IMG/VR virus record: IMGVR_UViG_3300044972_001012
Location: 1 to 64,000 of that record
DNA: 64,000 nt
Source: a virus
Reading direction: 5' to 3' (one strand)
Below the pieces are notes generated by a model. That model saw only the letters and a program-made list of their open reading frames with translations. It searched no databases and was not told where the DNA came from. Each line of letters starts with the position of its first letter. The stretch's first letter is position 1. Of this stretch, positions 35,472 through 38,733 are shown piece after piece. The position numbers were made by a program, and so were the translations under genes.

Positions 35472-35504
35472 TTTGGAATTGTGAAATAACTTAGCCTATC
35501 TTTG
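35472..35504 (+). promoter_or_regulatory. Promoter of structured RNA 1
   Basis: TTTG (35472-35475), a 21-nt spacer and TATCTTTG (35497-35504) match the Bacteroidota consensus. The predicted start falls at the base of the GCC-GAAA-GGC hairpin. Confidence 0.75.
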
Positions 35505-35508
35505 CAGA

Positions 35509-35614
35509 GCCGAAAGGCCGCTGGGTAGGAGCAGCGTTGTTTAAAACATTTCTTGTCCTTTGTCCGCTTAGTAAGGTCTCCTACCCTGAACGGCGAACAA
35601 AGGACATTTTTTTT
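35509..35614 (+). ncRNA. Pseudoknotted RNA with built-in terminator, copy 1
   Basis: Directly after a promoter there is a GCC-GAAA-GGC hairpin (35509-35518). Four pairing segments follow in the order A-B-A'-B': A GGGTAGGAG (35523-35531) with A' CTCCTACCC (35578-35586), 9 bp perfect; B 35554-35567 with B' 35593-35606, TGTCCTTTGT pairing ACAAAGGACA and extended to 14 positions with one mismatch. B' runs into eight T. So the terminator hairpin has a loop that can pair with upstream RNA, forming a pseudoknot. No ORF crosses it. An approximately 105-nt RNA is predicted. Confidence 0.6.
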
Positions 35615-35625
35615 AACAAAATTTT

Positions 35626-35841
35626 ATGAAGAATAATAACATCACAACAAAAATGTCTCACAACATTCACGATGAAAATGGAGAGTTAACTTATGAGATT
35701 GAAATGAGTAAAGAACATAAATCCATGTTTATTGAAGTTAAAATGCAGGATTGTTTTACTGGGCAGACAATGGTTGTAAAAATTCCATATTGGCCTATAA
35801 AAATGTTTATGAAGGCGGTGAACAAAATTCATTCAGCTTGA
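35626..35841 (+). CDS. Small hypothetical protein between two structured RNAs
   Basis: A 71-residue protein (MKNNNITTKMSHNIHDENGE) that is beta-rich (LTYEIEMSKEHKSMFIEVKM, TGQTMVVKIPYWPI) with a helical end. It starts 12 nt after the T-tract of structured RNA 1, so its expression may depend on terminator read-through. Another possible start is ATG 35653. No family recognised. Confidence 0.5.
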   Translation: MKNNNITTKMSHNIHDENGELTYEIEMSKEHKSMFIEVKMQDCFTGQTMVVKIPYWPIKMFMKAVNKIHSA

Positions 35842-35869
35842 TTTTTATTAAAAAAGTATAGTAAATTTG
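35838..35869 (+). promoter_or_regulatory. Promoter of structured RNA 2
   Basis: TTG (35838-35840), a 21-nt spacer and TAAATTTG (35862-35869), placed relative to the following GAAA hairpin as at copy 1. Confidence 0.7.
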
Positions 35870-35873
35870 TATT

Positions 35874-36001
35874 GGCGAAAGCCCCCGCTTGGAACCGGGA
35901 AAAAATTATTATGGAAAATCTTAAACAAGCCCCTCTCGGCGTACCTGTGCAGTTTGTAATTTCTGCGTTCCAAACAGGGAAACCGAGAGGGGTTTTTGTT
36001 T
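35874..36001 (+). ncRNA. Pseudoknotted RNA with built-in terminator, copy 2
   Basis: The layout matches copy 1: a GGC-GAAA-GCC hairpin (35874-35883, base pairs inverted relative to copy 1), A TTGGAAC (35889-35895) with A' GTTCCAA (35967-35973), and B CCCCTCTCGG (35930-35939) with B' CCGAGAGGGG (35983-35992) followed by TTTTT. Extra nested stems lie in the loop (CCTGT/ACAGG, GCAG/CTGC). The order is again A-B-A'-B'. It precedes the DUF6291-like replication gene by one base, so it may be a cis-acting leader as well as a small RNA. Confidence 0.6.
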
Positions 36002-36006
36002 TATGA
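35911..36006 (+). CDS. Possible 31-aa ORF within structured RNA 2
   Basis: ATG 35911 opens MENLKQAPLGVPVQFVISAF and ends at a TGA overlapping the next gene's ATG (ATGA). The coupling is suggestive of a leader peptide whose translation would unfold the pseudoknot. It may equally be accidental, since copy 1 has no counterpart. Confidence 0.3.
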   Translation: MENLKQAPLGVPVQFVISAFQTGKPRGVFVL

Positions 36007-36791
36007 AAGAGCGTGATTCTATGATCTTGTACAGAAGTTTTTATGAGGCAATTATTGAATTGCCAGAAGCTAATCAGCTTGAAATTATGAAGGCCATATT
36101 TGAATATGGATTCGATGGGGTTGAGCCAAAATTGTCTGGAATATCAAAAACAATATGGATTTTGATAAAGCCAAATATGGAAGCAAATCGAAGAAAGTGG
36201 GAGAACGGATGCAAACCAAAACAGAAGCAAGTTGGAAGCAAAACAGAAGCAAACTTGGAGCAAGTTGAAAGCAAACCCGAAGGCAATGTATATGTAGATG
36301 TAGATGTAGAAGAAGATGTAGAAGAATACATTGGTAAAAAACCAAGCAAAAAGAAAGAAAGTAAAACATTTGTTGCTCCATCTTACGAAGAAGTGTTAGC
36401 CTACTTTGTTCAAAATGGTCAGCCGGAGGCTCAAGCCCGAAAGGCATTTGCTCATTACAACAATCACGATTGGATAGATAGCAAAGGTAACAAGGTGAAG
36501 AATTGGAAACAGAAGGTTCAGACTAATTGGTTTAAGGATGCTGATACCCCAGAGTTCAATCGTTCCATCAAAATGTCCAAGGAACAGGGTGATGCTCAAA
36601 TGAACCGCTTTATTCAAAAAGGGTTCGATACACTTTCTGGAGAAGAGATTGAGTGGATTTATAATTGGCAACACAGAGATAGTTCGGCTTATATGCAATA
36701 TCCAAACGATATTCTACTAGCCGGAAGAACATCAAGGAAAACAAAGGGGCAGTGTGAAGCGGAAGATAGGAAAGCAGGATATGGATATTAA
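36003..36791 (+). CDS. DUF6291-like replication organiser
   Basis: A 262-residue protein. The N-terminus has the DUF6291 pattern (MILYRSFYEAIIELPEANQL, IMKAIFEYGFDGVEPKLSGI, IWILIKPNMEANRRKWENG). A low-complexity linker with repeated (S)K(T)EAN(L)EQV and VDVDVEEDVEE follows. The C-terminal domain (EVLAYFVQNGQPEAQARKAF, NNHDWIDSKGNKVKNWKQKV) is typical of phage replication-initiation or helicase-loader-like proteins. It precedes the primase-helicase gene, so a role in loading it is reasonable. Confidence 0.65.
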   Translation: MKERDSMILYRSFYEAIIELPEANQLEIMKAIFEYGFDGVEPKLSGISKTIWILIKPNMEANRRKWENGCKPKQKQVGSKTEANLEQVESKPEGNVYVDVDVEEDVEEYIGKKPSKKKESKTFVAPSYEEVLAYFVQNGQPEAQARKAFAHYNNHDWIDSKGNKVKNWKQKVQTNWFKDADTPEFNRSIKMSKEQGDAQMNRFIQKGFDTLSGEEIEWIYNWQHRDSSAYMQYPNDILLAGRTSRKTKGQCEAEDRKAGYGY

Positions 36792-38733
36792 GAAGTTTTC
36801 CGAAGTTCAGGCTATAGAGGGATTGCAGATAATTCCTGTTGATGGCAACAAAGTGCCAATTGCCAAAGATTGGCAGAAAGTAAAAACGCTATACGATTTT
36901 TCAAGGTTTCCAAGATTTGGCGGTATTGGTCTTGCTACCGGAAGCATCAGCGGAAATATTGAGGTAATAGACATTGACCAAAAGTATAGTCTTGATGGGA
37001 AACTTTTTGAAGAGTACAAAACTCTAATTGCAAAATCAAACAAGTCGCTTTTGTCAAAACTTGTTGTTAGTCGCACTCGTAGCGGTGGCTATCATTTTAT
37101 TTACAAATGTTCCGTGATTGAAGGGAATATTAAACTAGCAAGGCGTTTTACAACAGAAGAAGAAAGAGCCTCAAATTCTCACGATAAGGTGAGAGTTTTG
37201 ATTGAGACTCGTGGGGAAGGTGGTCAAATCGTGATTCCTCCAACGGAGGGTTATGAGATAATTTATGGATCTCTGTCTGATATTAAAACAATTTCTGTCG
37301 AAGAAAGGGATTTGTTATTTTTTTGTGCAAGGCAGTTAAACCAATATTTCCTTGTTGAACCGTCATTACCTCGGAGTCCAAAACCTCTGCCTTCCGCAGG
37401 GAGTGGCTTGTCTCCTGGGGATGACTATAACAACCGGGGAGATGTCTTGCAGTTGCTAGAATCTCATGGGTGGACTATTGTTGGCCAAAGCGGAAGTAAA
37501 ATAAATCTTAAAAGACCGGGCGATACCAATGCTGCAACTTCTGGGAACTACGATGAAGAGAAAGGTTGGTTTAGTGTATTTACTACATCAACAATATTTG
37601 AGCCTGAGAAAGCATACAGACCTTGGCATATTTTTACTTGGCTTGAATGCGATGGAGATTATGTTGAAGCTGCAAGAAAGCTAGGCGCAATGGGATATGG
37701 GGAGAAAAAGCCTGAGCCATCTGAGCAAATAATTAAACCATCATTTACTCACTCTGAGGGGAGAAAGCCGATTGATACGGAAACACTTTCGTTTCTTTCC
37801 AAAGAGGAAGATATTGATAATTATTTTCGCTCTGTTGTGGATGGGAGTTTTAAGATGGGTCTTCCAACTGGGTTTCCCGAATTGGATAAATACTTCCTTT
37901 TCAAACAAGGCAATCTTGTGATTGTAAATGGCCATGCGAATGTTGGAAAAACCGTAGTTCTTTGGTATTTGTCTATGCTCACTGCTATTCAGCACAAATG
38001 GAAGTGGGTAATGCTTTGTTCAGAAAACTCGGCTGGAGGTATGAGAACAAAAATGGTTGAATATTATTGGAGCAGACCAATTCGTTTTCAATCTCCTGAA
38101 CAACGGAAGGAAGCATACGAGTTTGTCAAAAACCATTTTTTCATCATTGACAATACCGAAAGCTATAATTACACTCAAGTTTTGGAAATGTTTTCTGCCG
38201 TTCATGCCAAGCACAATGTTCAAGGAGTTTTAATTGACACTTACAATAGTCTTGATGTTCCCGCCAAAGATGCTTACCAATACCATTATAGCACACTTAA
38301 TGCTTTGCGTTATTGGGCAAAAGCAAACAAGGTAAGTGTTTATGTAAATGCCCACCCAGGAACAGGAGCAATGCGAATGAAAGATGCAGATGGATTTCCA
38401 CTAGCTCCATTGATGGCTGATACGGAGCAGGGGAGTATGTTTGCTGCAAAAGCTGATGACTTTATTACCATCCATCGCAGACCTAATCATCCTGAAAAAT
38501 GGAAAGAAACGGAAATTCATATCAGAAAAATTAAAGAAACCGAAACCGGTGGAAGACCTTCTCCATTTGAAGAGCCGTTTGTATTTCAGATGCATGATGG
38601 GTGTGGATTTGCAACACTTCAAGGATTTAATCCTATTGCGAAATTGCGTAATACATCTCCCATTCCACAAGAAGAGCCAAAAAGTATAATAAATACAAAG
38701 TCTGGATTTAATTTTGATGAAGCTCCATTCTGA
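36781..38733 (+). CDS. Bifunctional primase-helicase
   Basis: About 650 residues from ATG 36781 (the frame opens at 36754). Residues 1-190 resemble the prim-pol (AEP) fold: GIGLATGSISGNIEVIDIDQ, SRTRSGGYHFIYK, ETRGEGGQIVIPP. Residues about 365-620 are a RecA-type DnaB/RepA helicase with Walker A GHANVGKTV (about 384), Walker B GVLIDTYNSLD, VYVNAHPGTG, and a DnaB-like end with DTEQGSMFAAKADDFITIHR. It should prime and unwind phage DNA. It overlaps the upstream gene by 11 nt and the next by 20 nt. Confidence 0.8.
   Translation: MDIKKFSEVQAIEGLQIIPVDGNKVPIAKDWQKVKTLYDFSRFPRFGGIGLATGSISGNIEVIDIDQKYSLDGKLFEEYKTLIAKSNKSLLSKLVVSRTRSGGYHFIYKCSVIEGNIKLARRFTTEEERASNSHDKVRVLIETRGEGGQIVIPPTEGYEIIYGSLSDIKTISVEERDLLFFCARQLNQYFLVEPSLPRSPKPLPSAGSGLSPGDDYNNRGDVLQLLESHGWTIVGQSGSKINLKRPGDTNAATSGNYDEEKGWFSVFTTSTIFEPEKAYRPWHIFTWLECDGDYVEAARKLGAMGYGEKKPEPSEQIIKPSFTHSEGRKPIDTETLSFLSKEEDIDNYFRSVVDGSFKMGLPTGFPELDKYFLFKQGNLVIVNGHANVGKTVVLWYLSMLTAIQHKWKWVMLCSENSAGGMRTKMVEYYWSRPIRFQSPEQRKEAYEFVKNHFFIIDNTESYNYTQVLEMFSAVHAKHNVQGVLIDTYNSLDVPAKDAYQYHYSTLNALRYWAKANKVSVYVNAHPGTGAMRMKDADGFPLAPLMADTEQGSMFAAKADDFITIHRRPNHPEKWKETEIHIRKIKETETGGRPSPFEEPFVFQMHDGCGFATLQGFNPIAKLRNTSPIPQEEPKSIINTKSGFNFDEAPF

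Follow-up and report, generated by a model that had tools for sequence, protein, structure and literature searches.

Comparison of phage genomes indicates that a real, widespread and uncatalogued promoter-driven RNA is located upstream of replication genes in many viruses of Bacteroidota, where it may act as a switch or brake. Its docking sequence changes only in matched pairs, which argues that the RNA is real. Two versions of it, hereafter element 1 and element 2, are found in the window, i.e., positions 1–64,000 and most of the 68.6-kb uncultured phage record IMGVR_UViG_3300044972_001012. The helices, the loop–loop kiss, the promoter-like box, the T-tract and the position of the elements are supported by comparison with related sequences.

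Architecture of the two elements in the window

Both elements occupy a gap flanked on one side by consecutive genes for proteins of unknown function and on the other by the replication operon (Table 1), the genes from this gap onwards being, in order, a 71-aa ORF, a DUF6291 protein, a Prim-Pol/DnaB-like primase-helicase and a NinB-like recombination protein. A first-pass annotation had described two copies of one architecture, each with a promoter, a GAAA-capped hairpin (P1), pairing segments in the interleaved order A-B-A'-B' and an intrinsic terminator, and all these segments and P1 hairpins are present in both copies at the positions it assigned to them. Each copy is preceded by TTTG/TTG, 21 nt and TAnnTTTG, which we take to be the Bacteroidota promoter type, and ends in an intrinsic terminator, the RNAs expected from sequence measuring about 108 and 126 nt, near the proposed 105 and 125 nt. 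The elements also precede replication genes as described, with the DUF6291 protein and the primase-helicase directly downstream, and they bracket a small gene, the 71-aa ORF, for which protein-family comparison gave no family match. The identity of this gene is particular to the window, different genes occupying its place in relatives, also in L002 and L003, which retain both elements. As a separate observation, the primase-helicase contains between its Prim-Pol and DnaB-like domains a HicA-like stretch (residues 220–248; PF07927, 23 bits, below the cut-off of 27).

Table 1. Features of the two elements and of the adjoining genes in the window.
Feature	Position	Strand	Details
Element 1 promoter (predicted from sequence)	35472–35504	+	TTTG 35472–35475, 21-nt spacer, TATCTTTG 35497–35504; presumed Bacteroidota −33/−7 type
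Element 1 P1	35509–35518	+	GCC-GAAA-GGC hairpin, predicted 5' end; lineage-specific
Element 1 P2	35519–35536	+	CGCUG-[G GUAGGAG]-CAGCG; kissing strand A, loop nt 35525–35531
Element 1 terminator hairpin	35554–35606	+	P3 35554–35563/35597–35606; P4 35565–35568/35592–35595
Element 1 terminator internal loop	35569–35573/35588–35591	+	UAGUA/GAAC, sarcin-ricin-like
Element 1 terminator inner part		+	P5 35574–35576/35585–35587; kissing strand A' 35578–35584
Element 1 T-tract (from sequence)	35607–35614	+	
Small ORF between the elements	35626–35841	+	71 aa
Element 2 promoter (predicted from sequence)	35838–35869	+	TTG 35838–35840, 21-nt spacer, TAAATTTG 35862–35869
Element 2 P1	35874–35883	+	GGC-GAAA-GCC
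Element 2 P2	35884–35899	+	CCCG-[C UUGGAAC]-CGGG; kissing strand 35889–35895
Element 2 terminator	35929–36000	+	P3 35929–35939/35983–35993; internal loop CGUA/GAAA; T-tract to 36000
Element 2 terminator inner part		+	P4 35944–35948/35974–35978; P5 35949–35952/35963–35966; A' 35967–35973
DUF6291 replication-operon protein	36003–36791	+	ATG 3 nt past element 2 T-tract
Prim-Pol/DnaB-like primase-helicase	36784–38733	+	second in operon

RNA folding recovers P1, P2 and the terminator hairpin in both elements, the terminator hairpins folding 4.8 SD (element 1) and 6.4 SD (element 2) below shuffled sequences. The P2 loop consists in both of 8 nt, one unpaired and the following seven complementary to a stretch inside the terminator hairpin, which points to a loop–loop kiss of 7 bp that is compatible with the terminator. 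The two copies thus agree in P1, P2, terminator hairpin and 1+7 kiss, as expected for one architecture. The pairing of the proposed interleaved pseudoknot is retained, but, the kiss being compatible with the terminator, a simple ligand switch between mutually exclusive folds is not indicated, and the minimum-free-energy structures contain no competing (antiterminator) fold. The B/B' helix of copy 1 includes one C·A mismatch (35564/35596). Its internal loop carries a sarcin-ricin (bulged-G) pattern, U-AGUA-N / N-GAA-C, recognised by sequence only and present in the element-1 family; the CGUA/GAAA loop of element 2 resembles it. Over 469 kb of fetched DNA, a strict descriptor matched both elements and their relatives only.

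Relatives and covariation

Element 1 constitutes a conserved family carried by 24 uncultured phage records. The first three relatives were reached via neighbouring proteins and more via DNA patterns with which the collections were scanned; model calibration was short, and many records are fragments. Searched against 28 records, a covariance model built on the terminator hairpin detects element 1 in 24, these being all the element-1 records. G–U pairs, together with a model score of 83 bits vs 22 bits for the opposite strand, place the RNA on the + strand.

Selection for RNA structure had been proposed from the fold shared by the two copies; the decisive evidence for it is the covariation of the helices and the kiss in relatives, homologues of element 1 having been found that do covary. 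The sequences compared are related and hence not independent: across 16 of these, the element 1 hairpin is 91.3% paired, with changes on both sides in 14 of 18 pairs, a value matched by none of 500 shuffles, and pairing falls to about half when the partner columns are slid; in the 14 full-length members, covarying pairs occur in each of P1, P2, the kiss, P3–P4 and P5, and the kiss, paired in 100% of cells, includes two covarying pairs and exists in four versions (GUAGGAG, GUAGAGG, GUAGCGG and GUAGCAG). In L004 both sides of the kiss are altered, from GUAGGAG/CUCCUAC to GUAGAGG/CCUCUAC, as are both sides of its P2 stem; compensation in the P2 stem of the family is seen as CGCUG/CAGCG to CGGAG/CUCCG, and in P1 as GCC/GGC to GTC/GAC (L053, L060 and L064). 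It is within this family that true P1 compensation occurs, the GCC/GGC versus GGC/GCC swap between the two copies, to which the first-pass annotation had appealed, being weak evidence alone. Nor is the GAAA hairpin a core part of the architecture, but rather a lineage trait, absent in the cultured phages described below and in the distant members L048, L050, L067 and L068. These four, of which L048 and L050 came from a DNA-pattern scan of viral records, keep P2, the kiss, a P5 of three pairs (one of which is mismatched in L067), P3 and a promoter-like box without P1. TAnnTTTG or a close variant is located upstream of most listed members, and a T-tract is found in nearly all, being poor in L048. 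No variation is seen in the UAGUA/GAAC core among element-1 relatives, an invariance partly fixed by the search patterns and not to be over-read, and other loops replace it in cultured phages.

Element 2 is carried by the window, L002, L003 and L015, four phages in total, and is about 95% identical throughout them. Its standing as a selected structure is accordingly narrower than first proposed, the support being conservation and one covarying stem pair, in P3, which varies as U-A / U-G / C-G across relatives. Variation in its P2 loop (L002, L003 and L015) is limited to the unpaired first nucleotide, and its kiss is supported by conservation and the shared 1+7 geometry, not by covariation of its own. 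A pattern search for further copies gave 15 stretches, none of them new, and the CM R2 search found no new members. A 30-codon ORF within element 2 (ATG 35912) was considered as a leader peptide and discarded: its compared-codon differences to L015 are all non-synonymous and its reading-frame end is shifted, so that coding is not supported. The start of the L003 contig (1–13) nearly matches the 13-mer at 834–846 (ACAAGCCCCTCTC) with which the terminator of element 2 begins, and a repeat may have broken the assembly here.

In agreement with the view that no known RNA family fits, Rfam 15 (4227 families) gave no matches in the window at the gathering threshold, only sub-threshold chance matches on the elements at a permissive E-value, and only two tRNAs on the loci of ten relatives. 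CM R1 found nothing convincing in 396 Bacteroidota genomes, one chance terminator apart, and the element-1 type therefore appears to be borne by phages that are not resident there. An element 1 pattern scan of bacterial genome contigs returned 20 stretches, none with the 5' part of the element; a match in DAC15 was rejected, only its promoter matching. The literature search found no description of the element.

Cultured phages and genomic placement

The same architecture, unrecognisable by sequence, opens the replication operon of cultured Flavobacterium phages (Lillamy-, Mumin- and Elemovirus), of Cellulophaga phi19:1, phi10:1 and phi18:3 and of Polaribacter Danklef, as it does in most element-1 phages; in Riemerella phage GRAP2 the leader lies upstream of an uncharacterised gene. 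In Flavobacterium phage elemoF, the element 1 model gave a weak match (E 9e-4) that falls precisely in the gap separating a tRNA from the small gene ahead of the replication initiator, and the equivalent position in elemoA, when read, held another version of the leader. A homology-free descriptor run on both strands of 1.24 Mb of phage DNA produced 62 raw matches vs 18 in shuffled DNA; when a perfect −7 box (TAnnTTTG) was also required, every real match was a family member, and such a box was absent from all 15 best shuffled matches. The descriptor brought in Lillamyvirus morran9-1 and GRAP2; further Flavobacterium phages and the three Cellulophaga ones then followed from resemblance to the morran leader, and the Polaribacter Danklef_1 leader was identified by eye at the syntenic place. 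Considering that the architecture is detected where sequence similarity fails, other such leaders have probably been overlooked.

The kiss covaries independently in Lillamy/Muminvirus, where it exists in three versions (GUGAGAAG, GUGAGACG and GUGGAACG), which differ at three pairs, all compensated. Each of 22 representatives (20 distinct sequences) has a kissing loop that fits its own terminator loop, whereas swapped loops of different sequence fit in 4 of 458 cases, a table that describes the family and is not a blind test, since the representatives were hand-chosen, and the kiss was in view for some that were picked by eye. The blind tests are (i) hairpin covariation with shuffles, (ii) the homology-free descriptor, (iii) full-length covariation of element 1, and (iv) the Lillamy/Muminvirus kiss.

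Some further features were observed around these leaders. A short 5' UTR motif, GGTAATCTTAAAACC, follows the terminator just upstream of the start codon (L145:14303–14340, L202:1207–1245 and L204:1215–1252); it is common to Flavobacterium and Cellulophaga phages that are otherwise different and may be a translation signal. Annotated small hypothetical genes that overlap or abut the leader in morran9-1 (gp042, L145:14157–14300), snusmum6-1 (gp42, L200:1197–1292) and elemoA_13-1A (L197:1452–1571) are probably misannotations of the RNA region. The GRAP2 leader (L143, strand −, 2338–2190), whose complementarity extends much further, over about 14 nt (TTAATCCAAGTGC region), and whose terminator hairpin has a longer inner part, may be a separate subtype.

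Among element-1 relatives the RNA is retained where the following gene is replaced, which speaks for a modular cis element, and the T-tract of several relatives stops within a few nucleotides of the start codon. Same-strand genes lie close upstream of the elements, and operon transcription could also originate further upstream. L048, L068 and a second copy in one genome (G023, the phage of L067) lie upstream of HNH-type or HNH-like genes, not replication initiators; the element may therefore also travel with, or regulate, homing endonucleases. Leaders before HNH or HNH-like endonuclease genes were noted in three large uncultured phages, at L048:2487–3173, on L102 (the leader of L068) and on L100 (strand −, about 3171), the Pfam HNH match being shown for L048 only.

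Possible function and known systems

We give about an even chance to the elements being cis-acting attenuator leaders that set terminator read-through into the replication operon. Judged from sequence, each would be an operon 5' leader with a promoter of its own and a single compact fold, made in the order P2 hairpin, A/U-rich linker and terminator hairpin, whose inner loop would kiss the P2 loop over 7–8 bp. If the promoters are used and the terminators function, many transcripts would stop at the T-tract, leaving a stable RNA of about 80–145 nt, and the operon would be reached via read-through, yielding its mRNA, since the T-tract and the start codon are too close together to leave much space for another promoter. 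Transcription of P2 and A' precedes that of the terminator's last strand, so that docking could speed, delay or gate terminator formation; the docked fold, complete by then, would set the termination frequency of RNA polymerase, and the attenuator would limit or time the expression of the replication genes, with some factor of the host or the phage probably adjusting it. The layout of an intrinsic-terminator attenuator is indeed present, with promoter, leader and stable hairpin plus T-tract ahead of the first gene; against it, the kiss is compatible with the terminator, and regulation by competing folds is not evident. The poor T-tract of L048, the members ahead of HNH-type genes or, in GRAP2, of a gene without assigned function, and the nearby same-strand upstream genes also speak against it. 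More tentatively, the kiss on the terminator's own loop might itself gate replication-operon transcription across Bacteroidota phages, either through direct action on RNA polymerase or through sensing of a host or phage factor, a mode previously undescribed in these phages.

A stable stand-alone small RNA, acting in trans as decoy or regulator, with the terminator as its 3' end only and operon expression as leakage, appears unlikely. Its own promoter, compact fold and terminator, the finding of just one copy per genome in almost every element-1 record and the constancy of the fold while neighbouring genes change would all suit such an RNA, but the two kissing loops, which are freely variable, are engaged with one another, and the linker is variable too, which leaves no conserved antisense seed exposed; a fixed position before operon starts would moreover be unnecessary. 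Of the small RNA and the sensing terminator offered as options in the first-pass annotation, it is placement rather than sequence that favours the cis leader. It is quite unlikely, by analogy with coliphage HK022, that a put-like RNA binds elongating RNA polymerase and confers resistance to termination. As in HK022, structured RNA lies directly behind promoters, twice in this phage, and the two-stem layout (P2 plus terminator hairpin) behind a promoter-like box is present, that box being presumably an early promoter; yet the account of put used here describes no terminator in it, while the second hairpin is here an intrinsic terminator, and polymerase-contact nucleotides are not demonstrable, the invariant core of element 1 being partly imposed by search patterns.

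There is a slim chance that the docked fold is a constitutive double-ended stabiliser and partial terminator, protecting the 5' end and fixing a constant read-through. The structure starts within about 15 nt of the −7 box in most members, leaving almost no free 5' tail, and the kissing sequence drifts freely; for this role, however, a plain 5' hairpin plus terminator would suffice, and that compensatory changes have recurred in a long-range kiss implies a role for the docking itself. A short transcript priming or opening a phage origin is very improbable: many phages have the element directly ahead of replication initiator genes, but no iterons surround the elements, GC skew has no turning point at 35 kb, some members precede HNH genes, and one genome has two copies.

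To our knowledge, early-transcription control in Bacteroidota phages is little studied, and a recurrent unannotated leader at the replication-operon head in many phage genera offers a handle on it. The cultured Flavobacterium, Cellulophaga and Polaribacter carriers allow the ends of the transcripts, their termination and the contribution of the kiss to be tested, and infection transcriptomes exist for Cellulophaga phages. Should the kiss gate operon transcription, it would represent an RNA-based antitermination or attenuation system new to these phages.

Some transcription-attenuating leaders and riboswitches, e.g., the purine riboswitch, likewise combine a 5' UTR position, kissing loops and a terminator; here, the kiss involves the terminator hairpin itself, the loop sequence is unconserved and no competing fold was found. 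In the lambda pR'-tR' leader (6S RNA), a promoter and short leader are followed by an intrinsic terminator, and the operon stays blocked until Q antitermination permits read-through. The present elements share with it a phage promoter, short leader and intrinsic terminator ahead of an operon; it differs in its late operon, its DNA-loaded Q protein, the subject of a structural paper (PMC6606751), and in having no kissing fold. STAXI (RF01728; PMC2864571) also consists of tandem pseudoknots near genes for DNA-handling proteins, but these are repeated simple pseudoknots of Enterobacteriales (PMC2864571), and its Rfam model matched neither the window nor the elements. HK022 has two put elements of about 70 nt behind early promoters, each with two stem-loops and requiring no phage proteins (PMC9378689). 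A put RNA would also be expected to bind the beta-prime zinc-binding domain of RNA polymerase and to suppress downstream terminators. The present elements differ from put, as described there, in having a terminator, kissing loops being unreported for put, and in their hosts, without sequence match; they resemble putL/putR in being phage structured RNAs at an operon head, with two copies per genome and two stem-loops (PMC9378689).
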